NCBI GenBank assembly: GCA_016218705.1
Contig: JACRDC010000064.1
Coordinates: 1 to 61,424, forward strand
DNA from: Desulfarculus sp.
Lineage (GTDB): Bacteria > Desulfobacterota > Desulfarculia > Desulfarculales > Desulfarculaceae
DNA: 61,424 nucleotides
Direction of reading: 5' to 3'
Shown here: positions 7,648 to 59,720 of the stretch, one piece after another
How positions within the stretch are numbered: the stretch's first letter is position 1
How the letters are laid out: the number at the start of each line of letters is the position of its first letter
Made by a program: the position numbers and the translations under genes
Notes under the pieces: generated by a model
What the model saw: only the letters and a program-made list of their open reading frames with translations
Databases searched by the model: none
What the model was told of the DNA's origin: nothing

Positions 7648-7831
7648 GAAATCCTCCTTGTTAGCTAATAGGACCGGTTTCAATGCCTGTTTGGCTACCC
7701 CTGGGCAACGGCCCTGGCCCGCCCCGGGGCACCTGGGAGCGCCTTCCTATCACAGGCCTCCCCTTGCTTCTTTTTACCTGCCGTGGGCTGTCAACAGGTG
7801 ATTAACATGACTTGCCGCCGATGGTCCAGGC

Positions 7832-41425: not shown

Positions 41426-43695
41426 GAGCCGGCCTCGTCCTTCTGGCGCTCGGTTTTTCGCCCTTCCATAAGGGCGGCCATGATGCGCTCCAGGCTGAAG
41501 GGCTGGTCGAACAGGCGCCGGCCCAAGGCCTGGGCCAGACCGCCGGCCACCGCCGGGGCCGTGGGGATCAAGGCCGGCTCGCCCACGCCCTTGGCCCCGA
41601 AGGGACCGGCCTCGTCGTCGCTCTCCACGATGATGGGAACGATGCGGGGCGCGTCGGCAATGGTGGGTATGTGGTATTGGTGCAGGTTGGAGCAGCGGGG
41701 GGTGTACTCCTCCATGAGGGCGTAGCCCAGGCCCATCACCACCCCGCCCTTGATCTGGGCCTCCACGGCCCGGGGGTTCATGGCCCGGCCCACGTCGTGG
41801 GCGGCGGCCACCTGGGGCACCCGGGTCAGGCCCGAATCGGCGTCCACCTCCACCAGGGCGGCCTGGGCCGCGAAGGCATAGGTTGGGTAGGGCACGCCCT
41901 GGCCGCTGGCCGGGTCCAGGGGCGTGGTGGGCGGGTCGTAGTCGCCCACCGCCTGCACCACCACCCCGCGCTCTTGCAGGCCCCGCAGCAGATCGGCCAG
42001 GGGCAGGCCCTTGCCGGCGGCGCGGGCGCCCCCGTGGTCCAGGGCGATGTCCTGGGGGGGCGCGCCCAACAGGGCGGCGGCTTGCTCCAGCAAAAGGCCG
42101 CGCAGGCCCTGGGCGGCAAGCTGCACGGCGTTGCCGCTGATGAAGGTCTGGCGGCTGGCCGAGGTGGCCCCGGCGTTAAGGGTGCGCGCGGTGTCGCCAC
42201 GCACCAGGCGCACATCTTGGGCGGGCCAGCCCAGGGTTTCGGCGGCGATCTGGCAGAGCACGGTGTCCGAGCCCTGGCCCAATTCGGCGGCGCCGGTGAA
42301 CAGGCACAAGCGGCCCTCGGCGTCCATCTCCAGGCGGGCGCTGGCCGGGTTGCTCATGGCCGTGTTGCCGATGCCGTAGAACATGGCCCCCAGGCCCACG
42401 CCGCGCAGGTATTGGCCCTCGGAGCGCGCGGCCTCGCGCCGCCACTGGCCGTAATGGGGGCGCAGGGCCTCCAGGCACTGGACCAAGCCGGCGCTACGCC
42501 CCAGGCGTTGGCCGGTGGCGGTTTCGTCGCCGGGGCGCAGGGCGTTGATGATGCGCATTTCCAGGGGGTCAAGGCCCAGGCGCTGGGCCAACTCGTCCAT
42601 CTGCCCCTCGTGGGCCAAGGCCACCTGGGGCACCCCGAAGCCGCGCATGGCACCGCACCAGGCGTTGTTGGTGTAGACCAGGCGTGAGTGCGCCTCCACG
42701 TGGGGCACCCGGTAGGGGCCGCTGGCGTGGACCGCGGCGCGCACGCACACCGCCGGCCCGTAGGAGGCGTACACCCCGGAGTCGCCGAATATCTCGGCCT
42801 GGCAGAGCAAGAGCCGCCCCTGCTCGTCGGCGGCGCTGGTGTACTCCATGACCAGACCGTGGCGCTTGGCCGTAGCCGCCAGGGACTCCTCGCGGGTGTA
42901 GGTCATGACCACCGGACGCTTCAGGTGCCAGGCGGCCAGGGCCAAAAAGCCTTGCAGGCCCAGGTCCAGCTTGCCGCCGAAACCGCCGCCGGTCTCGGCC
43001 TGGATCACGCGCACGCCCTCCTCGGGCAGGCCCAAGAGGCGCGCCAGGTCATGGCGGTCGTGGTGGGGGTTCTGGGTGGAGGCCCGTACCACCACCAGGC
43101 CGTCCTGCCACCAGGCGCGGCCGCCCTCGGGCTCGATGGCCGCGTGCTCAGCCTTGCTGGTGGTGTAGGTGTTGGTCACTACCACGGCGGCCCGGGCCAG
43201 GGCCCCATCGGGGTCACCCTTGCGCACCCGAGCCTCCCACAGGAGGTTGCCGGCCTCGCCCACCTTGGGCGCGCCGGGCAAGAGAGCCTGGCGGGGGTCG
43301 GAGACAGCGGGCAGGGGTTCCAGTTCCAGACGCGCCAGGCGGGCGGCGGCGCGGGCGGCGGTCAAGCTCTCGGCGGCGATCAGGGCCACGGCGTCGCCGG
43401 GGTAGCGCGTCTGGCCCTCGGCCAGGATGGGCTGGTCCTTGACCTTGGCGATGATGCCCACGCGGTTGATGCCCGGGATGTCGGCGGCGGTGAAGACCGC
43501 CACCACGCCGGGGTAGGCGCGAGCCGCCGCCAGGTCCAGGCGCTGGATGCGGGCCGGGCCGCTACCGGCGCGCAGGGCGAAGAGGTGCAGGTCTCCGGGC
43601 TGGGCCAGGTCCACGCCAAAAAGGCAGGCGCCGGTGACGCGCTCCAGGCCGCCGCGACGGGCCAGGCTCAACCCCACTTGGCTGGGCAAGCTCAT
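41422..43695 (-). CDS. Molybdenum hydroxylase large subunit (probable nicotinate dehydrogenase)
   Basis: Molybdopterin-binding subunit of the xanthine dehydrogenase family, 757 residues, predicted to hydroxylate nicotinate at C6 with water as oxygen donor. Motifs: ETGGGFGGKLD (236-242 GGGFGGK), AMRGFGVPQ, GAAELGQGSDTVLCQIAAE, AHDVGRAMNP, and the active-site Glu in GAKGVGEPALIPTAPAV. The ATG at 43695 overlaps the FAD-subunit stop. Unlike E. barkeri, where the Mo protein is split into two chains, this is one chain. Substrate could also be another N-heterocycle; the linked reductase and enamidase make nicotinate most likely. Confidence 0.87.
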   Translation of the reverse strand: MSLPSQVGLSLARRGGLERVTGACLFGVDLAQPGDLHLFALRAGSGPARIQRLDLAAARAYPGVVAVFTAADIPGINRVGIIAKVKDQPILAEGQTRYPGDAVALIAAESLTAARAAARLARLELEPLPAVSDPRQALLPGAPKVGEAGNLLWEARVRKGDPDGALARAAVVVTNTYTTSKAEHAAIEPEGGRAWWQDGLVVVRASTQNPHHDRHDLARLLGLPEEGVRVIQAETGGGFGGKLDLGLQGFLALAAWHLKRPVVMTYTREESLAATAKRHGLVMEYTSAADEQGRLLLCQAEIFGDSGVYASYGPAVCVRAAVHASGPYRVPHVEAHSRLVYTNNAWCGAMRGFGVPQVALAHEGQMDELAQRLGLDPLEMRIINALRPGDETATGQRLGRSAGLVQCLEALRPHYGQWRREAARSEGQYLRGVGLGAMFYGIGNTAMSNPASARLEMDAEGRLCLFTGAAELGQGSDTVLCQIAAETLGWPAQDVRLVRGDTARTLNAGATSASRQTFISGNAVQLAAQGLRGLLLEQAAALLGAPPQDIALDHGGARAAGKGLPLADLLRGLQERGVVVQAVGDYDPPTTPLDPASGQGVPYPTYAFAAQAALVEVDADSGLTRVPQVAAAHDVGRAMNPRAVEAQIKGGVVMGLGYALMEEYTPRCSNLHQYHIPTIADAPRIVPIIVESDDEAGPFGAKGVGEPALIPTAPAVAGGLAQALGRRLFDQPFSLERIMAALMEGRKTERQKDEAGS

Positions 43696-44567
43696 GGGCG
43701 CTCCCTCGCCTGGCCCCGCCGCCAGGCCAGCTCCAGGGCGCGCGCCGCCACGCGGGCTAGCGCCGGCTCCTTGTAGACCATGGATGGACGTGCCCCGCAG
43801 GCCCTTAGCATGTCGTCGCTTATGGCCTGGGCCGCCTGCTCCCACAGTGCCGGGGTGGGACGCCGGCCCAGCAGCAGGGCCTCGGCCTCGGCCACCCGCC
43901 GGGGGCTGGGGAAGACGGCGCCCACGCCTATGCCCGCCGCCGTGACCACGCCGTCTCTGTCCAGGTCCAACTGCGCGGCGATGTTGAAGCGGGCGATGCC
44001 CACGGCCTGGCGGCGGATCACCTTGGCGAAGGCGCTGGCCCCGGGGGTGGCCGGTGCCGGCAGGCCAAAGCCCACGATGATCTCGCCGGGCAAGAGGCCC
44101 CGGGCGGCCAGGTCCTCCACCAGGGCCTGACGCTCTCCCTTGGCCGAGGCCAGGCGGGCCAAGGCCCCCAGGGCCACCAGCACCGTGACCCCGTCGGCGG
44201 CGGGGCTTTTGTTGCCCAGGTTACCGCCCAGGGTGGCCACGTTGCGTATCTGCAAGGAACCCACGCGGCGGGCCGCCTCGGCCAAGAGCGGCAGGCGCTC
44301 CCTAATCAGGGCGTCCGCTTGGCACTGGCTGAAGGTCAGCCCCGCGCCCAGCCAAAGCTCCCCGACCTCCAGGTGGGCGCCTTGCAGCTCGGGCAGGCCG
44401 GCCACGTCCACCAGCAGGCCCGAGGGCTCGTTGCCGGCCAGGCGCTCATGGCGCAGCTCCACCATGAGGTCGGTGCCGCCGGCGATGACGCGCGCCGTTG
44501 GCCCGGCCTGGCTGAGGGCGGCACACGCCTCGGGCAGGCTGGCGGCAAGCAGGTATTGCGGGCTCAC
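43692..44567 (-). CDS. Molybdenum hydroxylase FAD-binding subunit
   Basis: Medium subunit (291 residues) that passes electrons from the FeS clusters to the final acceptor through FAD. The FAD-binding segments ARVIAGGTDLMVELRH and IRNVATLGGNLGNKSPAADG are typical of the CO dehydrogenase/xanthine dehydrogenase FAD domain; the C-terminal CODH_FAD_C part includes GIGVGAVFPSPRR. The GTG start at 44567 overlaps the small-subunit stop (GTGA). I see no extra FeS-binding insert of the kind found in 4-hydroxybenzoyl-CoA reductase. Confidence 0.88.
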   Translation of the reverse strand: MSPQYLLAASLPEACAALSQAGPTARVIAGGTDLMVELRHERLAGNEPSGLLVDVAGLPELQGAHLEVGELWLGAGLTFSQCQADALIRERLPLLAEAARRVGSLQIRNVATLGGNLGNKSPAADGVTVLVALGALARLASAKGERQALVEDLAARGLLPGEIIVGFGLPAPATPGASAFAKVIRRQAVGIARFNIAAQLDLDRDGVVTAAGIGVGAVFPSPRRVAEAEALLLGRRPTPALWEQAAQAISDDMLRACGARPSMVYKEPALARVAARALELAWRRGQARERP

Positions 44568-45034
44568 GGCTTTCGCTCCGGCTTGGCCGCCGCCAGGCGC
44601 ACGGCCTCGATGATGTCCTGGTAGCCGGTGCAGCGGCAGAGGTTGCCCTCCAGGGCCTCGGTGATCTCGGCGTCGCCGGGGCGGGGATGGCGTTCCAGGA
44701 GGGCCGTGGCCGACATGAGCATGCCCGGCGTGCAGTAGCCGCATTGCACCGCCCCGGCCTCCAGGAAGGCCTCTTGCAGGGGGTGCAGGCTCTCGCCCTG
44801 GGCCAGGCCCTCCACGGTGCGCACGGCCCGGCCTTGGGCCTTGGCCGCCGGCAGCAGGCAGGAATCCACGGACAGGCCGTCCAGAAGCACCGTGCAGGCC
44901 CCGCACTCGCCCACGCCGCAGCCCTCCTTGCTGCCGGTGAAACCCAGGCCGCGCAGGAGGGACAGCAGGCTCTGGGAGCCGTCCATGTCCGCCAGGTCCA
45001 TGGCCTGGCCGTTGAGCGAAAATCGCAGGCGCAT
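44564..45034 (-). CDS. Molybdenum hydroxylase [2Fe-2S] subunit
   Basis: Small subunit, 156 residues, with two [2Fe-2S] clusters. The N-terminal plant-type ferredoxin motif is GCGVGECGACTVLLDG with the fourth Cys in SVDSCLLPA. The C-terminal four-helix domain has QCGYCTPGMLM and NLCRCTGYQDI. It relays electrons from molybdenum to FAD. It is the first of the five coupled leftward genes (small, FAD and Mo subunits, reductase, UPF0280), and only 43 bases separate it from the TRAP transporter genes upstream. Confidence 0.92.
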   Translation of the reverse strand: MRLRFSLNGQAMDLADMDGSQSLLSLLRGLGFTGSKEGCGVGECGACTVLLDGLSVDSCLLPAAKAQGRAVRTVEGLAQGESLHPLQEAFLEAGAVQCGYCTPGMLMSATALLERHPRPGDAEITEALEGNLCRCTGYQDIIEAVRLAAAKPERKP

Positions 45035-45077: not shown

Positions 45078-46385
45078 CTAGCGCCCCATCATCAGGGGTA
45101 GCACCAGGGCGACCTGGGGGAAGATGGTGATGATGACGCAGACCGCGATAATGGCGAACAGGAAGGGCAGCGAGCCCTTGAAGATGGTCTCCAGAGGCAC
45201 GTCGGGCATGACACCGGCCACGGTGAAGACGTTGAGCCCCATGGGCGGGGTGATGAGGCCGGCCTCCATCATCAAGACCGAGATAACCCCGAACCAGATG
45301 GGGTGGAAGTCCAGCGCGGTCATCACCGGGAAGATCACCGGCATGGTCAGCACCATCATGGAGATGGAGTCCAACAGGCAGCCCAGAAAGAGGTAGATGC
45401 CCACCACCACCAGAAGGATGACGTAGCGGCTGATGGTCAGTTCCGAGGCCCAGGCCGCCACCTGGGTGGGGATGGTGGACAGGGCCAGGAAGTAGCTGAA
45501 CACGCTGGCCCCGGCCACCAGGAACAGCACCATGGCCGAGATGCGCGTGGCGTCCAAGAGGCTGGCCACCAGTTGCCGGTAGTTGACCTTGCCTGCGGCC
45601 AGCACCCAGAGGAACATCACCGTGGCGCCCACGGCCGCGGCCTCGGTGGCGGTGAAGAAGCCCAGGTAGATGCCGCCGATGACCAGGAGGAACAGGCTCA
45701 GTGCCCCGGCCACGCCCTTGACGGCCTTGATTTTTTCAGCGAAGCTGACCGGCTCGGGGCTGGCCGGGGCCAGCTTGGGATTGAGCCTGACCCACACGTA
45801 GACCGTGGCTGCGTACAGGGCGGCCAGCAGCAGGCCGGGCAAGAGGCCCGAGACCAAGAGCTTGCCGATGGACTGCTCGGTGAGCATGCCGTAGACGATA
45901 AAGCCGATGCTGGGCGGGATGAGGAAGGCCAGGGTGCCGCCGGCGGCCACGCAGCCCGCCGCCAGCTTGGGGTCGTAGTGGAAGCGGCGCATCTCGGGGA
46001 TGGCGATGGTGCCCATGGCCGCCGCCGAGGCCACCGAGGAGCCGCTCACCGCCGCGAAGCCGGCGCAGGCGGCGATGGTGGCCAGGCCCAGGCCGCCGGG
46101 CAGGCGGCCCAGCCATTTGTCGAAGGTGGTGAAGAGATTGGCGGTCATGCCCGAGCTGGTGCAGAAGCCGCCCATGAGGATGAACAGCGGGATGACCGTG
46201 TAGGGGTAGAAGGCGAAGACCTCGTAGACCGTGCTGGCCAGCACGGGCATGGCCGCCTCCAGGCTGGCCAGGTAGGCGATGCCCGCCAGCCCCACGAACA
46301 TGCAGGACAGGGCTATGGGCATGCCCAGGAACAAAAGCAGAAACACCAGCACGATGCCTAGAAGCCCGATGGTCACCGGTTCCAT
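45078..46385 (-). CDS. dctM: TRAP transporter large permease (DctM)
   Basis: Integral membrane subunit of a tripartite ATP-independent periplasmic transporter, 435 residues with about 12 membrane segments. It begins MEPVTIGLLGIVLVFLLLFL and carries the DctM family loops GVASGIGFIVYG-like PPSIGFIVYGMLTEQ, SGSSVASAAAMGTIAIPEM and GLITPPMGLNVFTVAG. GGGAGG precedes the ATG by about nine bases. Together with DctQ and DctP it imports an organic anion using a sodium gradient. Its place directly ahead of the hydroxylase genes suggests nicotinate or a related heterocyclic acid. Confidence 0.92.
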   Translation of the reverse strand: MEPVTIGLLGIVLVFLLLFLGMPIALSCMFVGLAGIAYLASLEAAMPVLASTVYEVFAFYPYTVIPLFILMGGFCTSSGMTANLFTTFDKWLGRLPGGLGLATIAACAGFAAVSGSSVASAAAMGTIAIPEMRRFHYDPKLAAGCVAAGGTLAFLIPPSIGFIVYGMLTEQSIGKLLVSGLLPGLLLAALYAATVYVWVRLNPKLAPASPEPVSFAEKIKAVKGVAGALSLFLLVIGGIYLGFFTATEAAAVGATVMFLWVLAAGKVNYRQLVASLLDATRISAMVLFLVAGASVFSYFLALSTIPTQVAAWASELTISRYVILLVVVGIYLFLGCLLDSISMMVLTMPVIFPVMTALDFHPIWFGVISVLMMEAGLITPPMGLNVFTVAGVMPDVPLETIFKGSLPFLFAIIAVCVIITIFPQVALVLPLMMGR

Positions 46386-46406: not shown

Positions 46407-46913
46407 TTAGGCCTGGTTGGTTTCGTGGCTGCCCCGGAACTTGCCCAGGGTGGTCAGCAGGTCGAGCAGCAGTTCAAGAAAGAAACAGACGCCGGCCACG
46501 GTGACCAAGAGCCTGAAGGGACGCTGGGGCACGCGCAGCATGTCCGAGACCGTGTTCTGGTCCCAGGCGATCTCCCAACCCTGCCAGGCGATGATGGCCA
46601 GCACCAGCATGCTCATCAGGGTGGTGAGCAGGTCCATGCAAAGGGCCACGGGCCGGGGCAGGCGGTCCAGGAGCATGGTGACCCGCACGTGCCCCTTCAC
46701 CTGATGGGTGTAGGCCAGGCCGCAGAGGATGAAGACCACCAGGATGAAGCTGGACAGCTCCACGGTGCCGGGCACCGGCTTGTTCCAAAAGGCACGGCCC
46801 AGCACGTCGGCGCTGGTCAAGAGCATCAGGGGCAGCAGCACGAACATGCCGCCGTAGGCCAGGCCGTGGGTGACGCGGTTCACCACCCGCCTTAATCCTT
46901 GCAGGCCGTCCAT
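46407..46913 (-). CDS. dctQ: TRAP transporter small permease (DctQ)
   Basis: Small membrane subunit, 168 residues with four hydrophobic segments and the family Trp/Arg patterns (RAFWNKPVPGTVELSSFILV, YTHQVKGHVRVTMLLDRLP). It forms the membrane complex with DctM, 21 bases downstream. GGAGGAGGAGG precedes the ATG. Confidence 0.9.
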   Translation of the reverse strand: MDGLQGLRRVVNRVTHGLAYGGMFVLLPLMLLTSADVLGRAFWNKPVPGTVELSSFILVVFILCGLAYTHQVKGHVRVTMLLDRLPRPVALCMDLLTTLMSMLVLAIIAWQGWEIAWDQNTVSDMLRVPQRPFRLLVTVAGVCFFLELLLDLLTTLGKFRGSHETNQA

Positions 46914-46971: not shown

Positions 46972-48039
46972 CTACTTATGCCATTCCTGCGGATAGGCCG
47001 CGCATGGCGCGCCGTACTGCTGGGCGATCTTGTTGTAAAGCTCCACGGTCTCCTTGGAGGCCAGGCCCTTGGCCTGCAGGTCGGCCACCCACTTCTTGGT
47101 CTCCTCCTGGAACTTGCCGAACCAGCGGCTTTCCTCGTCCTGGGGCAACTGGTACAGCTCCACGCCCTTGGACTTGATCTCGGCGATCATCTCCTTGTAG
47201 GACTGCTGATTGAGGCCGTGGGTGGTGGCGAAGGGGTTGCCCACCACCTCCATGATGATGGGCTTCAAGTCCTCGGGGGCCTTGTCCCAGGCCTTCTGGT
47301 TCATGACCACGCCCTCGGTCACGCAGCCGAAGGTGGCCATGACGCCGTGCTTGGCCACCTCGTGGAGTTTGAAGGCCAAAACCAGGGGCGAGCAGGTGAC
47401 TATGCCGTCTATGGTGCCGGTCTCCATGGCCATGTACACCTCGCCCAGCGGCATGAAGACCGGCTCGGCGCCCAGGGCCTTGATGTAGTTGGTCTGGTGG
47501 CCGCCGGGGCTACGGATCTTGAGCCCCTTGAGGTCGGCCATGGCGCGCACCGGCTTCTTGGTCCAGATGAAGGCCTGGATGCAGCCGTTGAGCTCCAGGA
47601 CCTTGACGCCCTCGAACTCCTTGTGCACGCCGGGGTCCTTCTCGTAGAGCTCGTTGCCGATCTTCACCGCCACGTCCTTGCCGTCCACCCAGGTGGCCAG
47701 GGACAGGGTGTCGGCCAGGGGGAAGCGTCCCGGAGTCCAGGTGGCCGTGAAGTAGCCCATGTCCGACAGGCCCTTCTTGACGATCTCGTAGTGCTCGGGG
47801 CCGGAGCCCAAGGCGCCGCCAGCGTAGAGGGTATAGGTGATGCGGCCGTTGCTGCGTTTTTTCAGCTCCTCCAGCATGGGGGTCCACACCGTCTTGACCT
47901 CGCGGCTTGCCGGCGGGTGCCAGGTGCTGAATTTGATGTGCATGGTGCCGCCCTTGGCGTCGGCGGCCAGTGCCCCGCCAGCGCCCACCAGACCGGCCAC
48001 CAGGGCCAGTGCCAGGATCATGCTACCCAAGCGACGCAT
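46972..48039 (-). CDS. dctP: TRAP transporter periplasmic binding protein (DctP)
   Basis: Periplasmic receptor, 355 residues, with a signal peptide (MRRLGSMILALALVAGLVGA, cleavage near ALA-AD). The DctP fold shows IKFSTWHPPASREVKTVWTP, GRITYTLYAGGALG, the conserved Arg-containing LKGLKIRSPGGHQT segment that normally binds the substrate carboxylate, and ETGTIDGIVTC. The ATG at 48039 has GGGAGG upstream; a longer frame exists without support. It is the first gene of the leftward operon, divergent from the Xre-cupin regulator across an A+T-rich gap. The substrate is inferred as nicotinate. Confidence 0.9.
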   Translation of the reverse strand: MRRLGSMILALALVAGLVGAGGALAADAKGGTMHIKFSTWHPPASREVKTVWTPMLEELKKRSNGRITYTLYAGGALGSGPEHYEIVKKGLSDMGYFTATWTPGRFPLADTLSLATWVDGKDVAVKIGNELYEKDPGVHKEFEGVKVLELNGCIQAFIWTKKPVRAMADLKGLKIRSPGGHQTNYIKALGAEPVFMPLGEVYMAMETGTIDGIVTCSPLVLAFKLHEVAKHGVMATFGCVTEGVVMNQKAWDKAPEDLKPIIMEVVGNPFATTHGLNQQSYKEMIAEIKSKGVELYQLPQDEESRWFGKFQEETKKWVADLQAKGLASKETVELYNKIAQQYGAPCAAYPQEWHK

Positions 48040-48414
48040 ACCCACCTCCCTCGTTCGTGTCCACTTTGATTTGGCTCTCCCGTTCAAATCGCCAGGCCGG
48101 CGTCGGTCCGCGCGCCATGGCCCGCCGTCCGCTCATCTTTAATATTTTAAGCCATGGCCACGCCCGGTGGCTATTGAACTATAACTTAAAAAATAATATA
48201 TTATTAAACAACAGAGCCTGGCAAGGAAATTTGTAAAATATTTTTACGCCTGTCAGGCACTGGCCCAACACGTACAACCCACCTCGGGGGCTTTTGGCGC
48301 CCCTGCCCCCCTGGCGGTCAACAGGGCGGTTGACAGCCGGCGCTATATATGAAACTATAAATAACTTAGTTTAATTTTACTTAATACGGCCAACGGGGGC
48401 AAGACCAGACAGCC
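48040..48414. promoter_or_regulatory. A+T-rich divergent control region of the nicotinate locus
   Basis: This 375-base gap is by far the most A+T-rich DNA in the window. It holds a 14-base palindrome AATAATATATTATT (48192-48205), two related elements AACTATAACTTA (48177-48188) and AACTATAAATAACTTA (48353-48368), and a TTGACA at 48330-48335. The paired elements lie near each divergent gene and are candidate sites for the Xre-cupin regulator. I could not fix a convincing -35/-10 pair: the TTGACA is 20 bases from the nearest TATAAA. Confidence 0.5.
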
Positions 48415-48960
48415 ATGGAGTCCATAGGTCAAAAGCTAAGGCAACTGCGCAAGGAGGCCAAGCTGACCTTGAAGCAGGTGGCCCAACAGGTGGACTGCAC
48501 CGCCGCCTATCTGTCGCAGATCGAGAATGACAAGGCCTCGCCTTCCATCGCCACCCTCAAGAAGATCGCCCAGGTCTTCAAGGTGCGCATCGTGGATTTC
48601 TTCCTGGACGACGCCCAGGACGACCCGGTGGTCACCAAGCCCGACCAATTCGTCAAGGTGAGCATGGGGCGCTGGCAGGCCGACATCCGCCAGATGGTGG
48701 CCTCGGTGTCCCAGAAGCGCATGCAGCCCTTCTACACGGTCATCGCCCCCGGCGGCGGCAGCGATGGCGAGTACACCCACGAGGGCGAGGAGTTCGGCGT
48801 GGTGCTGGAGGGCACGCTGACCCTGCGCATGGGCAGCGACCTCTACCGCATCAAGAAGGGCGAGAGCTTTTATTTCTCCTCGCTGCGCCCCCACTCCTGG
48901 GGCAACGAGGGGGCCAGGCGCTGCGTGGTGATCTGGGTGGTCAGCCCGCCCAGTTGGTAA
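48415..48960 (+). CDS. Xre-family regulator with C-terminal cupin domain
   Basis: A 181-residue regulator. Residues 1-65 form the helix-turn-helix (GQKLRQLRKEAKLTLKQVAQ, CTAAYLSQIENDKASPSIAT). Residues about 95-178 are a cupin barrel (EYTHEGEEFGVVLEGTLTLR, YRIKKGESFYFSSLRPHSW) that probably binds the effector or a metal. Proteins of this layout usually control adjacent catabolic genes. It sits between the leftward transporter/hydroxylase operon and the rightward enamidase operon, the position of a local regulator of the pathway. Its ribosome binding site is weak. Confidence 0.9.
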   Translation: MESIGQKLRQLRKEAKLTLKQVAQQVDCTAAYLSQIENDKASPSIATLKKIAQVFKVRIVDFFLDDAQDDPVVTKPDQFVKVSMGRWQADIRQMVASVSQKRMQPFYTVIAPGGGSDGEYTHEGEEFGVVLEGTLTLRMGSDLYRIKKGESFYFSSLRPHSWGNEGARRCVVIWVVSPPSW

Positions 48961-49049
48961 CGGACCGGTCAAGGCCTGGGCGCGCCTTGGGGGGCGTCCA
49001 GCCCGGATTGCCCAGCCCCGGGCCAAGGGGTAAGGGCGGGGAGCTTGCC

Positions 49050-50207
49050 ATGCCTGTGGTGTATGTAAAAAACGTGGGGCTCATGCTCAGCGGCGAGGTG
49101 GCCGCGCCCATTCTGGAGGCCGACAGCCTGGTCATCGCCGACGGCCTTATTAAAGAGGTGGGCCGGGGCCTCAATTGCCCGGCTGGGGCCACGGTGATAG
49201 ACGCCGGCGGCGCGGCGCTCTTGCCAGGGCTGATAGACAGCCACTGCCACGTGGTGCTCATGGACTACTCGCCGCGCCAGAAGACCATAGGCTTTCTGGA
49301 CAGCGCCCTGCACGGGGGAGTGACCACCTCCATCAGCGCCGGCGAGGTGCACCTGGACGGTCGCCCCAAGGACCGCGCCGGGGTCAAGGCCCTGGCCGTG
49401 CTGGCGGCCAAGAGCTTCGCCAACTATCGCCCCGGCGGCATGAAGGTGCTGGGCGGGGCGGTGATCCTGGAAAAATCCCTGGAGCTAAGCGACTTCGCCG
49501 AGCTGTACGCCGAGGGCGTGCGCGTGGTGGGCGAGGTGGGCCTGGGCTCGGTCAAGGAACCCAAGGACGCCGCGCCCATGGTCAGGGCCGCCCAGGCCGC
49601 CGGCCTGACCGTGATGATGCACACCGGCGGCACCTCCATCCCCGGCTCCTCCACGGTCACCGCCGAGCAGGTCATGGCCATCGGCCCCGACGTGGTCAGC
49701 CACATCAACGGCGGGCCAACCGCCATTAGTTTGGAGGAGGCCCGCCGCCTGGTTCAGGAGACCACGCTGACCCTGGAGATCGTGCACTGCGGCAACCCGC
49801 TGCGCGCCGTGCAGGTCTGCCAGATGATCGAGGAGCGCCGGGACTACGCAAGAATCATCGTGGGCAACGACGCCCCCAGCGGCACCGGCATCGTGCCCTT
49901 GGGCATCCTGCGCACCATGAACCTCATGGCCAGCCTGGGCGGCTTGGCGCCGGAGGTGGTGGTGGCCATGGCCACCGGCAACACCGCCCGGCGCTATGGC
50001 CTCAACCGCGGGGTCATAGCCCCGGGGCGCGAGGCCGACCTGGTCTTTGCCGACGCCTCCATGGGTTCGGCGGGGGCCGACTTTTTGGCCGGCCTGGCCG
50101 AGGGCGACAACCCCGGCGTCAGTATCGTCATGGTGGACGGCCAGGTCATAACCACCAAGAGCCGCAACACCCCCCCGCCCAAGCGGGCGGCCAAGGTCGT
50201 GGGCTGA
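49050..50207 (+). CDS. ena: Enamidase (amidohydrolase family)
   Basis: Hydrolyses 1,4,5,6-tetrahydro-6-oxonicotinate to 2-formylglutarate and ammonia. The 385-residue length equals that of the E. barkeri enzyme as I remember it, and long blocks match: PRQKTIGFLDSALHGGVTT, GGAVILEK, VVGEVGLGSVK, MHTGGTSIPGSSTVTA, VVSHINGGPTAIS, GNDAPSGTGIVPLGILR and the C-terminal KSRNTPPPKRAAK. The bimetal site is complete: His65 and His67, bridging Glu162, His191, His218 and Asp274. The start at 49050 has GGGCGGGGAG upstream. This is the strongest functional marker in the locus; hydantoinase-like alternatives fit less well. Confidence 0.9.
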   Translation: MPVVYVKNVGLMLSGEVAAPILEADSLVIADGLIKEVGRGLNCPAGATVIDAGGAALLPGLIDSHCHVVLMDYSPRQKTIGFLDSALHGGVTTSISAGEVHLDGRPKDRAGVKALAVLAAKSFANYRPGGMKVLGGAVILEKSLELSDFAELYAEGVRVVGEVGLGSVKEPKDAAPMVRAAQAAGLTVMMHTGGTSIPGSSTVTAEQVMAIGPDVVSHINGGPTAISLEEARRLVQETTLTLEIVHCGNPLRAVQVCQMIEERRDYARIIVGNDAPSGTGIVPLGILRTMNLMASLGGLAPEVVVAMATGNTARRYGLNRGVIAPGREADLVFADASMGSAGADFLAGLAEGDNPGVSIVMVDGQVITTKSRNTPPPKRAAKVVG

Positions 50208-50841: not shown

Positions 50842-52335
50842 ATGCCCCAGACACTGAAAAACTACATCAACGGACAGTGGGTGGACACCCAGGGCGGCTA
50901 CATTGACGTGGTGAACCCGGCCCTGGACCAGGTGATCGCCCTGAGCCCCAAGTCCACCCTGGCCGAGGTGGACCAGGCCGTGGCCGCGGCCAAGGCCGCC
51001 TTCTGGAACTGGCGCAACACTCCGGCCACCCGCCGGGCCATCTGCATGTTCAACCTGCGCAACAAGCTCTACGAGCACAAGCGCGAGCTGGCCGAGATCA
51101 TGGTCCGTGAGCACGGCAAGACCTTGTCCGACGCTCTCGGCGAGCTGACCCGCTCCTACGAGTATGTGGAGTTCACCTGCGGCATCCCCGAGCTGATGAA
51201 GGGCTCCTACAGCGAGGACGTGGCCCGCAAGGTGGACACCCACTTCATCCGCGAGCCCCTGGGGCCGTTCCTGATCCTGCCGCCCTTCAACTTCCCGGCC
51301 ATGATCGCCCTTTACTTCTGCTGGCCGGTGGCCTGCGGCGACACGGTGGTCATCAAGAGCGCCACCCAGACCCCCATGACCATCAACCGCATCGTGGAGC
51401 TGGCACAAGAGTGCGGCTTCCCGCCGGGGGTCATCAACCTGGTGGGCTGCGGTCGCAATGAGGTGCACCGTCTCTTGACCCACCCCGACATGGTGGGCGT
51501 GACCTTCGTGGGCTCCTCCCAGGTGGGCGAGATCGTCTACAAGACGGCCACCGGGGCCTGCAAGCGCGCCCAGGTGCAGGGCGGGGCCAAGAACCACTTG
51601 GTCATCAACAGCGACTGCCCCATTGACACCAACCTGGAGAACATCATCGGCTCCTGCTACGGCAACTCCTCCCAGCGCTGCTTCGCCGGCTCCAACCTCT
51701 TGGTGCACGAGGCGGTGTATGACGAGTTCCTGCAAAAGTTCCTGGCGGCGGCCAAGTCCCAGGTGCTGGGCAATGGCCTCACTCCCGGCGTGACCATGGG
51801 GCCGGTGGTGAGCCGGGCCTCCCTGGAGAGCGCCGTGGGCTTCATCGAGCGCGCCGAGAAGGAGGGCGCCAAGATATTGCTGGACGGGCGCGGCCCCAGC
51901 GTGCCCCAGTGCCCCCAGGGCTACTTCCTGGCGCCCACCCTGATTGAGGCCGAGCCTCACATGGAGGTCTGGCGCGAGGAGGTCTTCGCCCCGGTGCGCT
52001 GCATCAAGAAGATAAAGGACCTCTCCGAGGCGGTGGCCATCATCAACGCCTCCCAGTTCGGGCACACCGCCGTGATCTACACCGAGAACGGCGGCCAGGC
52101 CCGCGACTTCGTGCGCCTGTGCGATACCGGCCAGATCGGCATCAACGTGGGCACTCCGGCGCCCATCGCCTTCTACCCCGTGGGCGGCCGCCGCACTTCC
52201 TTCTATGGCGACCTGCGGGGCCGGGCCAACGACGCCGTGGATTTCTACACCGACAAGAAGGTGGTGGTCACCCGCTGGACCAGCGCCATTCAGATGCCCG
52301 AGGCAGCCCTCAAGGCCGAGGGCAAGCTCTTCTAG
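50842..52335 (+). CDS. CoA-acylating semialdehyde dehydrogenase (methylmalonate-semialdehyde dehydrogenase type)
   Basis: A 497-residue aldehyde dehydrogenase of the MmsA/IolA class. The catalytic Cys280 is in GNSSQRCFAGSN. The region QGGAKNHLVINSDC (246-259) carries the GAKNH hallmark and lacks the general-base Glu of hydrolytic enzymes, as expected for CoA acylation. The family start is KNYINGQWVDTQ, with PPFNFPAMIALYF following. Classical members oxidise and decarboxylate methylmalonate semialdehyde to propionyl-CoA. 2-Formylglutarate is a beta-oxo acid of the same kind, so glutaryl-CoA plus CO2 is the predicted product here (inference). It ends the enamidase operon, followed by a clear terminator. 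Confidence 0.87.
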   Translation: MPQTLKNYINGQWVDTQGGYIDVVNPALDQVIALSPKSTLAEVDQAVAAAKAAFWNWRNTPATRRAICMFNLRNKLYEHKRELAEIMVREHGKTLSDALGELTRSYEYVEFTCGIPELMKGSYSEDVARKVDTHFIREPLGPFLILPPFNFPAMIALYFCWPVACGDTVVIKSATQTPMTINRIVELAQECGFPPGVINLVGCGRNEVHRLLTHPDMVGVTFVGSSQVGEIVYKTATGACKRAQVQGGAKNHLVINSDCPIDTNLENIIGSCYGNSSQRCFAGSNLLVHEAVYDEFLQKFLAAAKSQVLGNGLTPGVTMGPVVSRASLESAVGFIERAEKEGAKILLDGRGPSVPQCPQGYFLAPTLIEAEPHMEVWREEVFAPVRCIKKIKDLSEAVAIINASQFGHTAVIYTENGGQARDFVRLCDTGQIGINVGTPAPIAFYPVGGRRTSFYGDLRGRANDAVDFYTDKKVVVTRWTSAIQMPEAALKAEGKLF

Positions 52336-52381
52336 ACCGCCTGCCTCCGGGCCTCGCCCTGGCGGGGCCGGTCATGCCCAG

Positions 52382-52411
52382 CCAAGGGTCCGGGTTTCCC
52401 CGGGCCCTTGG
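52382..52411 (+). terminator. Intrinsic terminator of the enamidase operon
   Basis: CCAAGGGTCCGGG (52382-52394) pairs with 52399-52411 over 13 bp with one wobble, loop TTTC, followed by TTTGTTATT. It lies 47 bases after the aldehyde dehydrogenase stop and separates the enamidase operon from the methylmalonyl-CoA genes. Confidence 0.8.
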
Positions 52412-52676
52412 TTTGTTATTGGGCGCCCGCTTCTTCTGGGGGCCTGTGTGCAAATTTTCCTCTTGACAGGCGCGCGCCCTGGCAATAACAATGTTCTCCA
52501 ATAATCATCAATAACTGGCCGCATGGCGCAAATAATTTTTAACTTACTGTTATTATACTATATTTTCTGCACAAGCCAGCAAACATTCGTTACCGTGCGG
52601 CCTGGCCCCAGGCCTGGCGGGCCCCTCGGCGGCCCCAAGGCCGGCCGGCAAGCGCTCCAACGGCCCCCTCTAGGGC
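52412..52676 (+). promoter_or_regulatory. A+T-rich region upstream of tetR2
   Basis: The stretch from about 52480 to 52570 is A+T-rich (AATAACAATG, TTATTATACTATATTTT), in contrast to its surroundings. It likely holds the promoter of the next regulator, but I cannot assign hexamers with confidence. A CGTTACCG half-site near 52589-52596 matches one arm of the GGGTAAC/GTTACCC palindrome found after the regulator gene. Confidence 0.4.
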
Positions 52677-53384
52677 ATGGCAAACGGTCGGTTCGATGAT
52701 TCACAAACTTCGGCTGGGGTAAAGGCTATTATGACCCCGCGGCGCAAGAAAAGCTCGCAGCCTCCCGAGACCCTGGACCCCGAAAGCCAGAAACGCCTGG
52801 AGGCGGCGGTCATGGAGGTCTTCTCCAGCGTGGACTTCCACAAGGCCAACATCCGCACCGTGGCCAAGAAGGCCGGGGTGAGCTTCAGCACCATCTACAA
52901 ATACTACGGCTCCAAGGAAGGCCTTTTGTTCGCCTTCGTGGATAAGAAGCTGGCCGTGCTCACCGAGCGCATGGTGGACCACCTCAAGGGCATCGAGAGC
53001 CTCAAGGAAAAGCTGCGCAAGGTCTTCTGGCTACAACTCGACTACTACGAGAAGAACCCCGACCTGGGGCGCATCATCTTCATGACTTTACCGCTGACCA
53101 CCTGGATGAGCGACACCACCTTCGAGCAAAAAAAGCTCATCGGCCTGTTCGTGGACGCCCTGCGCCAGGGCCAGCGCCAGGGCATATTGAACCCCAACGT
53201 GCGGCCGGGGGTGCTGTTGGATTTCATGCACGGCCTGGTGCAGCGCTCCTTCTTCATGTGGGTCTACCGGGGACAAAGGGGCAGTCTGACGGGCCAGGCC
53301 AACCAGATGTTCGAGATGTGCTGGCGGGCCATGACCAAGGATGTGGAGTCCGCCCCGGGACGGGGCGAGGCCAGGGGCGCCTAG
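52677..53384 (+). CDS. TetR-family transcriptional regulator
   Basis: A 235-residue TetR-like protein with a standard DNA-binding domain (QKRLEAAVMEVFSSVDFHKA, then IRTVAKKAGVSFSTIYKYYG) and a ligand domain with WLQLDYYEKNPDLGRIIFMT. The start is uncertain: ATG at 52677 gives 18 extra residues, while ATG at 52731 gives MTPRRKKSSQ; neither has a strong ribosome binding site. It stands immediately before the methylmalonyl-CoA operon in the same direction and is the obvious candidate for its control, perhaps sensing a propionate-derived acyl-CoA. Confidence 0.87.
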   Translation: MANGRFDDSQTSAGVKAIMTPRRKKSSQPPETLDPESQKRLEAAVMEVFSSVDFHKANIRTVAKKAGVSFSTIYKYYGSKEGLLFAFVDKKLAVLTERMVDHLKGIESLKEKLRKVFWLQLDYYEKNPDLGRIIFMTLPLTTWMSDTTFEQKKLIGLFVDALRQGQRQGILNPNVRPGVLLDFMHGLVQRSFFMWVYRGQRGSLTGQANQMFEMCWRAMTKDVESAPGRGEARGA

Positions 53385-53410
53385 GGTCCCTCCGGGCCCG
53401 CTTGCCGGTC

Positions 53411-53427
53411 GGGTAACAACGTTACCC
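53411..53427. promoter_or_regulatory. Palindrome GGGTAAC-AAC-GTTACCC, candidate operator
   Basis: Perfect 7-bp arms with a 3-base spacer, 27 bases after the TetR stop and about 93 bases before the biotin-carrier gene. The size and symmetry suit a TetR-family operator. A half-site GTTACC also occurs upstream of tetR2 near 52590. Confidence 0.45.
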
Positions 53428-53519
53428 TTGGGGGCCGGCCAGGCGGCGCGCGGCCAGACAACAAGCTAAAGCGGCCGGCCCACGGGGCCAGGCCCCATCA
53501 AGACAAGAGGAGAGTGGTG

Positions 53520-53732
53520 ATGAAAGCGATCGTGGCTCCCATGGGCGGCAAGGTGGTCAAGATTTCGGTCAAGCCCGGCGACAGCATCGCCGAGGACGAC
53601 GAGGTGGCGGTGCTGGAGGCCATGAAGATGGAGATGCCCATCCTCTGCGAGGAAGACGGCACCGTGGCCGAGGTCAAGGTGGCCCCCGGCGACACCGTGG
53701 AGGCCGAGCAGGTGCTGATGGTCCTCTCCTAG
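53520..53732 (+). CDS. Biotin carrier protein (transcarboxylase 1.3S-like)
   Basis: A 70-residue biotinyl domain with the biotin-accepting Lys36 in LEAMKMEMPI. It shuttles the carboxyl group between the 12S and 5S carboxyltransferase subunits. It is much shorter than the Propionibacterium 1.3S protein (about 123 residues), lacking the N-terminal assembly arm and linker, and so is a bare domain. The ATG at 53520 has AGAGGAGAG upstream. It is the first gene of the methylmalonyl-CoA operon. Confidence 0.88.
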   Translation: MKAIVAPMGGKVVKISVKPGDSIAEDDEVAVLEAMKMEMPILCEEDGTVAEVKVAPGDTVEAEQVLMVLS

Positions 53733-53766
53733 GGAGGCCGTCCCCGCGCGAGAGCGATATACCCCT

Positions 53767-53800
53767 GGGGGCCACGCCGCCCACTACCGGCGCGGCCCCC
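53767..53800 (+). other. Hairpin between biotin carrier and 12S gene
   Basis: GGGGGCC (53767-53773) pairs with 53794-53800, continued by CGCCG/CGGCG after one mismatch, in the 107-base gap. There is no T-run. It may stabilise or partly terminate the short biotin-carrier transcript, allowing an excess of carrier over carboxyltransferase. Confidence 0.45.
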
Positions 53801-53839
53801 AATCAAGAGCCTGGCCGGAGCATCCTTCGGAGGAGACAA

Positions 53840-55402
53840 ATGACAGGTCCCCAGACCACGCAGGAGAAGATCGAGGAGCTAAGGAAACGTACCGAGGCGG
53901 CCCTGTTGGGCGGCGGCGAGAAACGCATCGCGGCCCAGCACGAGAAGGGCAAGATGACCGCCCGCGAGCGCATCGAGGCGCTTTGCGACGAGGACAGCTT
54001 CGAGGAGTTCGACCGCTTCGTGGTGCACCGCTGCACCGAGTTCGGCATGGACGAGCAGAAGATACCCGGCGACGGCGTGGTCACGGGCTATGGCACCGTG
54101 GAGGGCCGGCCGGTGTTTCTTTTCAGCCAGGACTTCACGGTCTTCGGCGGTTCGCTCTCCGGACCCTTCGGCGAGAAGGTCTGCAAGGTGATGGACCTGG
54201 CGGTCAAGGCCGGGGCGCCCATCATCGGCCTCAACGACTCCGGCGGGGCGCGCATCCAGGAGGGCGTCATCTCCCTGGGCTCCTACGGCGAGATCTTCCG
54301 CCGCAACGTGCTGGCCAGCGGCGTGGTGCCCCAGATCAGCGCCATCATGGGACCCTGCGCCGGCGGCGCGGTGTACAGTCCGGCCATCACCGACTTCATA
54401 TTCATGGTGGACCAGACCAGCTACATGCACATCACCGGCCCCCAGGTCATCAAGACCGTCACCGGCGAGGAGGTCACCAGCGAGATCGTCGGCGGGGCCA
54501 AGATACACAACCAAAAATCGGGCGTGGCCCAGTTCATCTGCAAGAGCGACAAGGAGTGCCTCAAGGACGTGCGCAAGCTTCTGGGCTACCTGCCCCAGAA
54601 CTGGGAACAGAAGCCGCCCGAGAAGCTCAGCGCCGATAGCTCCGAGCGCACCAACGAGGAGTTGAACTCCCACATCCCCGACAACCCCAAGTCGCCCTAT
54701 GACATGAAGAAGCTCATCAAGACCGTGGTGGATCTGAACAGTTTCTTCGAGGTGGCCAAGGGCTTCGCCAAGAACATGATAACCGCCTTCGCCCGCATGG
54801 GCGGCATGGTGGTGGGCATCGTGGCCAACAACCCCATGTTCATGGCCGGCTGCCTGGACATAGACGCCAGCCGAAAGTGCGCCCGCTTCGTGCGCTTCTG
54901 CGACGCCTTCAACATCCCGGTGGTCACCTTCGTGGACGTGCCGGGCTTCCTGCCGGGCATCCAGCAGGAGTACGGCGGCATCATCACCCACGGCTCCAAG
55001 GTCATCTACGCCTACTGCGAGGCCACGGTGCCCCTGGTCACGGTCATCACCCGCAAGGCCTACGGCGGGGCCTACGACGTCATGGGCTCCAAGCACCACG
55101 GGGCGGACGTCAACTTCGCCTACCCCACGGCCGAGATCGCGGTGATGGGCCCCGAGGGCGCGGTGAACATCGTCTTCCGCAACGAGTTGAAGCAGGCCAC
55201 GGACAAGAAGAAGACCTACCAGGAACTGGTGGACCAGTACCGCGCCCGCATCGCCAGCCCCTACCGGGCCGCCGAGCTGGGCTATATAGACGAGATCATC
55301 ATGCCCAGCGACACCCGGCGCAAGGTGATCCGGGCGCTGACCGCCCTTAAGCACAAGCGCACCTGGCGCCCCGTGCGCCGCCACGGCAACATCCCCCTGT
55401 GA
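53840..55402 (+). CDS. Methylmalonyl-CoA carboxyltransferase 12S subunit / propionyl-CoA carboxylase beta type
   Basis: Acyl-CoA carboxyltransferase of 520 residues that moves CO2 between biotin and propionyl-CoA to make (S)-methylmalonyl-CoA. Two crotonase-like halves are visible: the first oxyanion-hole region is LNDSGGARIQEGVISLGSYG with GPCAGGAVYSPAITDF, the second is FVDVPGFLPGIQQEYGGIIT and TRKAYGGAYDVMGSKHHGAD. CGGAGGAG precedes the ATG. No biotin carboxylase gene is nearby, while a 5S subunit is at 59.7 kb, so transcarboxylation with oxaloacetate rather than ATP-driven carboxylation is favoured. Confidence 0.92.
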   Translation: MTGPQTTQEKIEELRKRTEAALLGGGEKRIAAQHEKGKMTARERIEALCDEDSFEEFDRFVVHRCTEFGMDEQKIPGDGVVTGYGTVEGRPVFLFSQDFTVFGGSLSGPFGEKVCKVMDLAVKAGAPIIGLNDSGGARIQEGVISLGSYGEIFRRNVLASGVVPQISAIMGPCAGGAVYSPAITDFIFMVDQTSYMHITGPQVIKTVTGEEVTSEIVGGAKIHNQKSGVAQFICKSDKECLKDVRKLLGYLPQNWEQKPPEKLSADSSERTNEELNSHIPDNPKSPYDMKKLIKTVVDLNSFFEVAKGFAKNMITAFARMGGMVVGIVANNPMFMAGCLDIDASRKCARFVRFCDAFNIPVVTFVDVPGFLPGIQQEYGGIITHGSKVIYAYCEATVPLVTVITRKAYGGAYDVMGSKHHGADVNFAYPTAEIAVMGPEGAVNIVFRNELKQATDKKKTYQELVDQYRARIASPYRAAELGYIDEIIMPSDTRRKVIRALTALKHKRTWRPVRRHGNIPL

Positions 55403-55468
55403 TGGGACTCAACGCGGCCCCGCGCGCCATCTTGGGCGCCGGGTACGCCTTAGAATAAGGAGGCAGCC

Positions 55469-57133
<1,665 letters not shown>

Positions 57134-57143
57134 GAGGCCAGCC

Positions 57144-57542
57144 ATGCGTAAGATTAGAGTGCTAGCCGCCAAGCCGGGCCTGGACGGCCACGACCGCGGC
57201 GTCAAGGTGATCTCGGCGGCCCTGCGCGACGCGGGCATGGAGGTGATCTACACCGGCCTGCGCCAGACCCCCGAGCAGATCGTGGCCGCGGCCATGCAGG
57301 AGGACGTGGACGTCATCGCGCTAAGCGTGCTCTCCGGTGCCCACGATTACCTCTTCCCCCGGGTCATGGAGCTGATGCGCGAGAAGAAGCTCGATGACGT
57401 GCTGGTCATCGGCGGGGGCATCATCCCCGAGGAGGACGTGCCGGCGCTCAAACAGGCGGGCATCGCCGAGATCTTCGGGCCGGGCACCAACACCGGCGCC
57501 ATCGTGGCCTTCATCACCAACAACCTCAAACGCGCGCTGTAA
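57144..57542 (+). CDS. Methylmalonyl-CoA mutase, cobalamin-binding (small) subunit
   Basis: A 132-residue B12-binding domain that supplies adenosylcobalamin to the large subunit. The cobalt-ligating motif is DGHDRG (His in [11 protein letters not shown]), with the downstream LSVLSGAH and GGGIIPEED-containing [15 protein letters not shown] that complete the Rossmann-like pocket. It starts 10 bases after the large subunit gene with TAGGAGG upstream. Length and motifs match stand-alone mutase C-terminal domains. Confidence 0.94.
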
Positions 57543-57561
57543 GGCGGGCCGGGTAGCGATC

Positions 57562-58734
57562 ATGAACATACACGAGTATCAGGCCAAGGAGCTTTTCAAG
57601 AGCTTTGGCGTGCCGGTGCCGGGCGGCGGCCTGGCGCTCACGGCGGACGAGGCCCTCAAGGTGGCCCAGTCCTTGGCCCCGGGCAAGCTGGTGGTCAAGG
57701 CCCAGATCCACGCCGGCGGGCGCGGCAAGGGCGGCGGGGTCAAGGTGGTGGACTCGCCCCAGGAAGCGGCGGCCGCCGCCGGGAAAATGCTGGGCATGAC
57801 GCTCGTCACCCACCAGACCGGCCCGGCGGGCAAGACGGTAGGCAAGGTGTGGATCGAGGAGGGCACTGCCATCGCCGGGGAGTTGTACGCGGCGGTGGTG
57901 CTGGACCGGGCCGCCGAGCGCCTGGCGGTGATGGTCAGCCCGGCCGGCGGCATGGACATCGAGGAAGTAGCCGCCAAGACGCCCGAGAAGATCTTCACCA
58001 CCCACGTGGAGCCAGGCCAGCCCCTGTGGGGTTTCCAGGCCCGCAAGCTCCTCTTCGGCTGCGGCCTGCCGGTGGCCCTGGTCAACCAGGGCGTTGGCAT
58101 CCTCCAGAACCTGGTGCGCCTGGCCTGGGAAAAGGAAGCCACCCTGGTGGAGATCAACCCCCTGGCCGTCACCGCCCAGGACAAGCTCATCGCCCTGGAC
58201 GGCAAGATCAACTTCGATGACAGCGCGCTCAAGCGCCACAAGGAGATCGCCCTGCTGGACGACCCAGCCGAGTCCGATCCTCTGGAGCGCCAGGCCGTGG
58301 ACATGGGCCTGAACTACATCAGGCTGGGAGGCACCGTGGGCACCATGGTCAACGGCGCTGGCCTGGCCATGGCCACCATGGACGTCATCAAGATGGCGGG
58401 CGCCGAGCCGGCCAACTTCTTGGACGTGGGCGGCGGCGCCAGCGAGGAGATGGTCACCAAGGGCTTCGAGGTGATCCTGACCGACCCCAACGTCAAGGCC
58501 ATCCTCATCAACATTTTCGGGGGCATTCTGCGTTGCGACACCCTGGCCGCCGGCGTGGTGGCGGCGGCCAAGAAGCTCAAGCTGACCGTGCCCATGGTGG
58601 TGCGCCTGGAGGGCACCAACGTGCAGGCCGGCAAGGAGATACTGGGAGCCAGCGGGCTCAACTTCGAGGTGGCCGGCTCCATGAGCGAGGCGGCGCAGAA
58701 GATCGCCTTGGTGGCGGCGGGAGGTGCAAGGTGA
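57562..58734 (+). CDS. sucC: Succinyl-CoA synthetase beta subunit
   Basis: With SucD, converts succinyl-CoA, ADP or GDP and phosphate to succinate and a nucleoside triphosphate, the substrate-level phosphorylation of this pathway. The 390-residue protein begins [20 protein letters not shown], with the ATP-grasp region [28 protein letters not shown], and the late [17 protein letters not shown]. The ATG at 57562 follows the mutase subunit by 19 bases; its ribosome binding site is weak. Its stop overlaps the sucD GTG start (GTGA). ADP versus GDP preference cannot be read with confidence. Confidence 0.95.
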
Positions 58735-59603
58735 GCATCCTGGTCAACAAGAACTCCCGCGTGGTGGTGCAGGGCATAACCGGCAAGGAGGGCATGTTCC
58801 ACACCGAGAAGATGATCGAGTACGGCAGCCCCGTGGTGGCCGGCGTCACCCCCGGCAAGGCCGGGCAGGCGGTGCTGAATCTCCCGGTCTTCAACACCGT
58901 GGCCGACGCGGTCAAGCAGACCGGCGCCGACACCAGCATCTGCTTCGTGCCCGCCGCCTTTGCCGCCGACGCCGCCTGCGAGGCCTCCGACGCCGGCATC
59001 AAGGTGGTGGTGGTCATCAGCGAGCACATCCCGGTGATGGACATGATAAGGGTTAAGGCCTATCTCAAGGCCCGGGGCACCCTGATGGTGGGCCCCAACT
59101 GCCCGGGCGTCATTACCCCTGGCGAGTGCAAGCTGGGTATCATGCCCGGCTACATCCACCGCCCCGGCTCGGTGGGGGTCATCAGCCGCTCGGGCACCCT
59201 GACCTACGAGGTGGTGGACCAGCTCACCAAAGCCGGCCTGGGTCAATCCACCTGCATCGGCATCGGCGGCGACCCCATCATCGGCCTGCACTTCATTGAC
59301 CTCTTAAAGATGTTCGCCGACGACCCCCAGACCCAGGCCGTGGCTCTGATCGGCGAGATCGGCGGCGACGCCGAGGAGCGGGCGGCGGCCTACATCAAGG
59401 AGCATTTCAAGAAGCCGGTCTTTGGCTTCGTGGCCGGGCTCACCGCCCCGCCGGGCAAGCGCATGGGCCACGCCGGGGCCATCATCAGCGGCTCCAAGGG
59501 CCGCGCCGAGGACAAGCTAGCGGCCATGGAGGCCGCGGGCATCACGGTGGTCAAGGCCCTGGGCCAGTTCGGCGCCACGGTGGCCAAGGCCATCGGGGGC
59601 TAG
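58731..59603 (+). CDS. sucD: Succinyl-CoA synthetase alpha subunit
   Basis: CoA-binding and phosphohistidine subunit, 290 residues, GTG start overlapping sucC. Motifs: [53 protein letters not shown] and the active-site His in [12 protein letters not shown]. Forms the heteromeric synthetase with SucC. It is followed by a 117-base gap with an A+T-rich segment before the 5S gene. Confidence 0.95.
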
Positions 59604-59648
59604 GCTGAAGGAGACTTCACTCGCGCCGGTGGCGGCGGGCTGGGCATT

Positions 59649-59668
59649 TAATTGTATACAGATATAAT
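59649..59668 (+). promoter_or_regulatory. Possible internal promoter before the 5S gene
   Basis: A perfect TATAAT (59663-59668) lies in an A+T-rich patch 53 bases before the 5S start codon. No convincing -35 sits at the right distance, so this is tentative. It would let the transcarboxylase subunit be transcribed apart from the upstream genes. Confidence 0.35.
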
Positions 59669-59720
59669 TGGCCAACTCGTCTGCCCGGGCAACCCGTAAC
59701 GTTTTTTAGGAGAGCCGAAA

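Follow-up and report, generated by a model that had tools for sequence, protein, structure and literature searches.

In E. barkeri, the enamidase of nicotinate breakdown and the intermediate 2-formylglutarate are already known (PMC9304392, PMC7356986). That pathway, which comprises enamidase, Hmd, 2-methyleneglutarate mutase (Mgm) and Mii, has its upper part, from the molybdenum hydroxylase to 2-formylglutarate, in common with a locus in 61,424 nucleotides of Desulfarculus sp. DNA (contig JACRDC010000064.1), a stretch referred to here, at its whole length, as the window. Unlike E. barkeri, the window's genome contains no match to Mgm at E <= 1e-20 (the positive control, genome G041, was detected), the cluster lacks Hmd, Mgm and Mii, and the reduction and B12-dependent rearrangement of E. 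barkeri have as their counterpart a single proposed oxidative step. Azorhizobium is known to break down nicotinate via glutarate, according to PMC3511419 (citing Kitts, 1992). The aerobes Azorhizobium and Bradyrhizobium share with the window both the upper pathway and the C5 level at which it ends (glutaryl-CoA), but they proceed by decarboxylation, oxidation to free glutarate and then CoA transfer, whereas in the window glutaryl-CoA would be formed directly, with no ATP or succinyl-CoA spent. In the Azorhizobium work of Kitts from 1992, decarboxylation is said to come first and oxidation to follow.

The third related system is methylmalonate-semialdehyde dehydrogenase (MMSDH; MmsA/IolA/ALDH6A1; TIGR01722; PDB 1t90, 9q0d and 4zz7), which to our knowledge catalyses the only type of beta-decarboxylating reaction in the aldehyde dehydrogenase superfamily. 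It has about 40% identity and a common fold with the aldehyde dehydrogenase (ALDH) of the window; both have the catalytic Cys and the Arg124/Arg301-type pair and lack the general-base Glu, and the chemistry proposed to be shared is acylation, beta-decarboxylation and transfer to CoA. Glutaryl-CoA as a carbon route is not new, but a direct CoA-acylating, decarboxylating step would be; no description of such a step from 2-formylglutarate to glutaryl-CoA was found in the literature searched, which covered few subscription papers.

The gene at 50842-52335 (+) encodes an MmsA/IolA-type CoA-acylating aldehyde dehydrogenase, as judged from profile, sequence, fold and residues, and is proposed as a candidate decarboxylating 2-formylglutarate dehydrogenase that forms glutaryl-CoA. 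The ORF agrees in its limits with the sequence-only reading from which this analysis started, begins with ATG and is uninterrupted for 497 aa; its codon-position GC is that of a normal high-GC coding gene (window 67.7% GC). The product is a member of the ALDH superfamily (PF00171), in which the MMSDH profile TIGR01722 is its top profile at 440.9 bits, just below the curated cut-off of 448.5; several orthologs of its clade score 454-487 bits, and one 448.1. The nearest PDB sequence is 1t90, B. subtilis IolA, and an AlphaFold2 model (mean pLDDT 91.3) gave a Foldseek result in which the top 22 matches are all MMSDHs (TM 0.90-0.95). Profile, fold and gene order thus confirm the earlier claim that an enzyme of this type ends the enamidase operon. 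The window-type enzyme is labelled ALDHa here, and the other MmsA-like type of enamidase clusters ALDHb; both labels are our own.

The order in the operon is regulator, enamidase, AA_synth protein and ALDH, with gaps of 7 and 39 bp preceding the last gene. The first gene encodes an HTH-cupin (PuuR-like) transcriptional regulator (48415-48960, +). The second encodes a homologue of enamidase (6-oxo-1,4,5,6-tetrahydronicotinate amidohydrolase; 48954-50207, +; PDB 2vun, E = 5e-139), which is identical to E. barkeri enamidase 2VUN at 220 of 382 aligned positions (58%) with full-length homology; its true start is likely to be near 49050 (MPVVYVKN). The third encodes a protein of the AA_synth family (PF06684; 50215-50802, +), a general partner of enamidase clusters. 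The opposite strand carries genes for a TRAP transporter, consisting of the solute-binding protein DctP (46972-48087, -), the small permease DctQ (46407-46913, -) and the large permease DctM (45078-46385, -), and for a molybdenum hydroxylase that is a candidate nicotinate hydroxylase, with [2Fe-2S] (44564-45034, -; PF01799, E = 5e-35), FAD (43692-44906, -) and molybdopterin (41422-43845, -) subunits; the N-terminal stretch of the FAD-subunit ORF is probably non-coding. The last of these genes (39902-41425, -) encodes a 6-hydroxynicotinate reductase homologue with a 4Fe-4S N-terminus (Fer4 domains), 45% identical over 455 columns to the 6-hydroxynicotinate reductase, so annotated electronically, of a Sulfitobacter pontiacus plasmid.

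As predicted from these homologies, the complete upper nicotinate pathway is encoded in one cluster of the window. The molybdenum enzyme would hydroxylate nicotinate to 6-hydroxynicotinate, which would be reduced to 6-oxotetrahydronicotinate, and enamidase would open the ring of the latter to give 2-formylglutarate and NH4+. The closest named enamidase locus is L058, from a Desulfarculus MAG. The window's genome, whose affiliation is near Desulfarculaceae, contains dsrA, and a sulfate- or sulfite-respiring life is therefore likely.

The residue comparison drew on 21 sequences of ALDHa, 24 of ALDHb and 31 of canonical MmsA. The catalytic Cys280 and the GAKNH motif (248-252) noted in the earlier reading are present, but the motif is not at the general-base position, as had been supposed; alignment to general ALDHs places Gln246 in the Glu268 column (ALDH2 numbering), the general-base site, and Glu268 is absent from both ALDHa and ALDHb. 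Arg104 (Arg124-type) and Arg279 (Arg301-type) occupy columns that are 100% Arg in both types, while canonical MmsA (n=31) varies between Arg and Lys at the Arg104 column and has Arg at that of Arg279. Talfournier et al. reportedly found in 2011 that Arg124 and Arg301 of IolA (ALDH2 numbering) bind the alpha-carboxylate, and we take the Arg104 and Arg279 columns to be equivalent to these positions.

Elsewhere in the active site the enzymes diverge from MMSDH. In the 177-type column, the Trp that is invariant in 31/31 canonical MmsA gives way to Tyr158 in ALDHa and to Ser in ALDHb; in the 465-type column, the invariant Phe of the same 31 gives way to Val447 and to Leu, respectively. Both columns presumably line the substrate pocket, as carried over from ALDH2. 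The 468-type column contains only Arg or Lys in ALDHa and ALDHb (Arg450 in the window) and mostly His or Trp in MmsA, and column 408 is His in both types and Asn in canonical MmsA. The loss of two aromatic walls together with a gain of positive charge would fit a longer, doubly charged substrate. In the proposed mechanism, Arg104 and Arg279 would bind the alpha-carboxylate of 2-formylglutarate and Cys280 would attack the aldehyde; hydride would pass to NAD+, the beta-carboxy thioester on the enzyme would lose CO2, and the glutaryl group would be transferred to CoA. The replacements at Tyr158 and Val447 would make room for the CH2CH2COO- side chain, which Arg450 may bind. Conversion of 2-formylglutarate, NAD and CoA to glutaryl-CoA, CO2 and NADH is the best-supported function of the window ALDH and is probably the correct one. 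It had been suggested in the sequence-only reading that an MmsA-type step yielding glutaryl-CoA and CO2 replaces Hmd and Mgm; cluster association, mutual exclusion and pocket residues now support this well, and from them we infer the reaction itself, including its substrate, its product and the order of oxidation and decarboxylation.

The chief alternative, which we consider rather unlikely, is that 2-formylglutarate decarboxylates first, either spontaneously or through another enzyme, leaving glutarate semialdehyde for the ALDH to oxidise as a CoA-acylating dehydrogenase. The final product, glutaryl-CoA, would be identical. In favour of this reading are the breakdown of THON via glutarate in Azorhizobium (PMC3511419) and an ordinary SSADH-type ALDH near an enamidase-like locus of Mesorhizobium. 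Glutarate semialdehyde, however, would need no alpha-carboxylate-binding pair, and the Arg124/Arg301-type residues are kept in both ALDHa and ALDHb.

AA_synth was considered as a 2-formylglutarate decarboxylase and ruled out, being equally common in Hmd/Mgm clusters; it is a poor candidate because it is found in 12/13 Hmd/Mgm loci, where no such decarboxylation occurs. Overall, AA_synth (PF06684) is present in 70/80 enamidase loci, including 41/41 of ALDH type, and probably serves the tetrahydro-oxonicotinate/enamidase step itself. Its solved relatives are 2qtp and 3byq.

The layout of hydroxylase and reductase genes, TRAP transporter genes and the regulator-enamidase-AA_synth-ALDH operon recurs across the window's family in whole-genome searches. 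Cultured carriers include Desulfocarbo indianensis (L069) and Dethiosulfatarculus sandiegensis (L065). Most family relatives carry ALDHb at the ALDH position, 33-38% identical to the window ALDH, MmsA-like and without Glu268. The enamidase of genome G020 is 78% identical to that of the window, the nearest outside the genus, yet is paired with ALDHb; in this operon, one ALDH type thus seems to have taken the place of the other. In the tree, ALDHa and ALDHb each form a fully supported clade (100% support), separate from MMSDH. Independent recruitment of the two was considered; a quick tree placed them apart, a careful tree joined them with support of 86/97, and they may be sisters. Both of these deep MMSDH branches, which extend across sulfate reducers, syntrophs and some Bacillota, probably consist of CoA-acylating 2-formylglutarate dehydrogenases that decarboxylate their substrate. 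No relatives were found on viral contigs.

Scanning the named genomes turned up 80 enamidase loci, of which 11 carry ALDHa and 30 ALDHb (41 MmsA-type in all), 13 carry Hmd and/or Mgm/Mii, and 26 carry neither; in all but three of these last the sequence stops short of 5 kb on one side or both. Hmd and Mgm were identified by family and gene order on the basis of Smac51 (L048), rather than by comparison with E. barkeri proteins; the Smac51 locus encodes enamidase, reductase, UPF0280, an HIBADH-family dehydrogenase, a B12-binding protein of 614 aa, a PrpF-family protein and GlmL. The two routes are mutually exclusive, in that none of the 80 loci carries both an MmsA-type ALDH and Hmd/Mgm/Mii. When the count is confined to the 42 loci that extend 5 kb or more to either side, there are 29 with ALDH, 10 with Hmd/Mgm, three with neither route within 10 kb and none with both (Fisher p = 1.9e-7, a statistic that ignores kinship). 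Loci with the B12 route, in Smac51, Sporomusa and other relatives, are all without ALDH. Co-located genes for 2-hydroxymethylglutarate dehydrogenase and the mutase, which the earlier reading had set against its own proposal, were searched for and are present only in such loci. On aerobe plasmids, the enamidase-like loci of Sulfitobacter, Mesorhizobium and Thermomicrobium have no annotated MmsA-type ALDH close by; their enamidase-like proteins are only 41-47% identical to that of the window.

Genetic linkage to enamidase is a further feature that sets the window ALDH apart from MMSDH. Orthologs (E <= 1e-140) are present in 12 of 296 genomes of the phylum, and all 12 also encode enamidase, which is found in 48/296 overall. 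In 11 of the 12 the ortholog and the enamidase gene share a contig and are no more than 10 kb apart; in the twelfth, G178, they are on different contigs, and the enamidase gene is at the very end of its contig. More broadly, an MMSDH-profile gene is found about 10 kb or less from enamidase in 35 of the 48 genomes that encode the latter. The phylum-genome set overlaps with the named-locus set, and the cluster statistics ignore relatedness.

Downstream of the ALDH gene there are 341 bp before the next gene, with a terminator-like hairpin of 15 pairs directly after ALDH (52380-52413, +) and a promoter-like site at 52463. The region from 52677 to 61226 contains genes for TetR, a carboxyltransferase, the methylmalonyl-CoA mutase large subunit, SucC, SucD and a pyruvate-carboxylase-B-like protein, and forms a separate propionate/methylmalonyl-CoA gene set with its own promoter-like site.

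The carboxyltransferase, mutase and SucCD also suit a propionyl-CoA-forming MmsA, which counts against 2-formylglutarate as the substrate. An ordinary MMSDH that feeds propionyl-CoA to these genes, 1.5-9 kb away, would agree with the top profile and fold of the enzyme, and a search with the MMSDH profile found no second MMSDH in the window's genome. This function is nevertheless unlikely for the window ALDH. The hairpin separates the enamidase operon from the propionate genes, which begin with a TetR gene of their own; the ortholog clade tracks enamidase in 12/12 genomes; both pocket residues that are invariant in the 31 canonical MmsA are altered; and the operon has no recognised gene for making methylmalonate semialdehyde. 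In addition, family relatives G008, G009, G012 and G014 have a canonical MmsA elsewhere in the genome besides the MmsA-type ALDH of the cluster. Very unlikely, finally, is oxidation without decarboxylation, to 2-carboxyglutaryl-CoA or a free tricarboxylate, or an operon for another substituted pyridine: residues cannot separate decarboxylating from non-decarboxylating turnover and the family match of the molybdenum hydroxylase leaves its substrate unfixed, but MMSDH decarboxylates at the acyl-enzyme stage, as established in the enzymology of IolA, and all 80 loci were found through enamidase, with a 6-hydroxynicotinate reductase homologue in 69 of them.

If the window ALDH does convert 2-formylglutarate to glutaryl-CoA, it would provide a testable gene for the channelling of nicotinate carbon in sulfate reducers that live on this compound, for which we know of no genetic assignment. 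It would also account for the missing B12 mutase set in ALDH-type enamidase clusters, and dozens of 'methylmalonate-semialdehyde dehydrogenases' would be re-annotated. The beta-decarboxylating ALDH reaction would have a second natural substrate, in this case dicarboxylic, and the tetrahydro-oxonicotinate pathway a further, energy-saving exit.

The glutaryl-CoA produced would enter glutaryl-CoA dehydrogenation and then beta-oxidation. The 3-hydroxybutyryl-CoA dehydrogenase that had been assigned to this lower part is a real gene, encoding a 3-hydroxyacyl-CoA dehydrogenase (6784-7683, -). The acyl-CoA dehydrogenase genes of the window (28656 and 31906) are also real, but their assignment to the glutaryl-CoA step is not supported; with the glutaryl-CoA dehydrogenase profile NF045552 (cut-off 470 bits) their scores are 272 and 293, and they lack Arg at the Arg94 column. 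An acyl-CoA dehydrogenase on contig C71, with an Arg near this column, was likewise rejected, since its nearest relatives are short-chain enzymes and 3mpi ranks far down among its matches; the same contig carries a dehydrogenase-HBD-thiolase operon.

No full-length NF045552 glutaryl-CoA dehydrogenase was found in the 99%-complete assembly of the window's genome. A 46-aa N-terminal fragment of one is present at two contig ends (C124:3-140 and C17:15257-15394; L204 and L205). This is identical at 40/46 positions (87%) to the glutaryl-CoA dehydrogenase of G002, from the same genus; the other acyl-CoA dehydrogenases checked in the window's genome match it with no more than 48% identity. The likeliest explanation is a glutaryl-CoA dehydrogenase gene, perhaps in two copies, cut by the assembly. 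Strong matches to the family occur in 16 of 20 tested genomes with enamidase and ALDH, with none in the Hmd/Mgm genome G041; the family is also present in G002 and G007, which lack enamidase, and is thus not specific to enamidase genomes. Within ALDH-type clusters no glutaryl-CoA dehydrogenase gene was found.

Several further genes recur at enamidase loci. A UPF0280 gene (L048:7161-8036, L083:12919-13785 and similar) adjoins the 6-hydroxynicotinate reductase gene in 59/80 loci, and the weak similarity of its product to ApbE (E = 2.6e-7) hints at a role in flavin attachment for the reductase. A 476-aa protein without a Pfam match (L048:4825-6255) is encoded with the Hmd/Mgm genes in 9 of the 13 loci of that type. 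At L083:6933-7682, an isochorismatase-family (nicotinamidase-like) gene adjoins the ALDH and hydroxylase genes; its group is present in 10 loci, eight of them ALDH-type, suggesting that nicotinamide may be an entry substrate.
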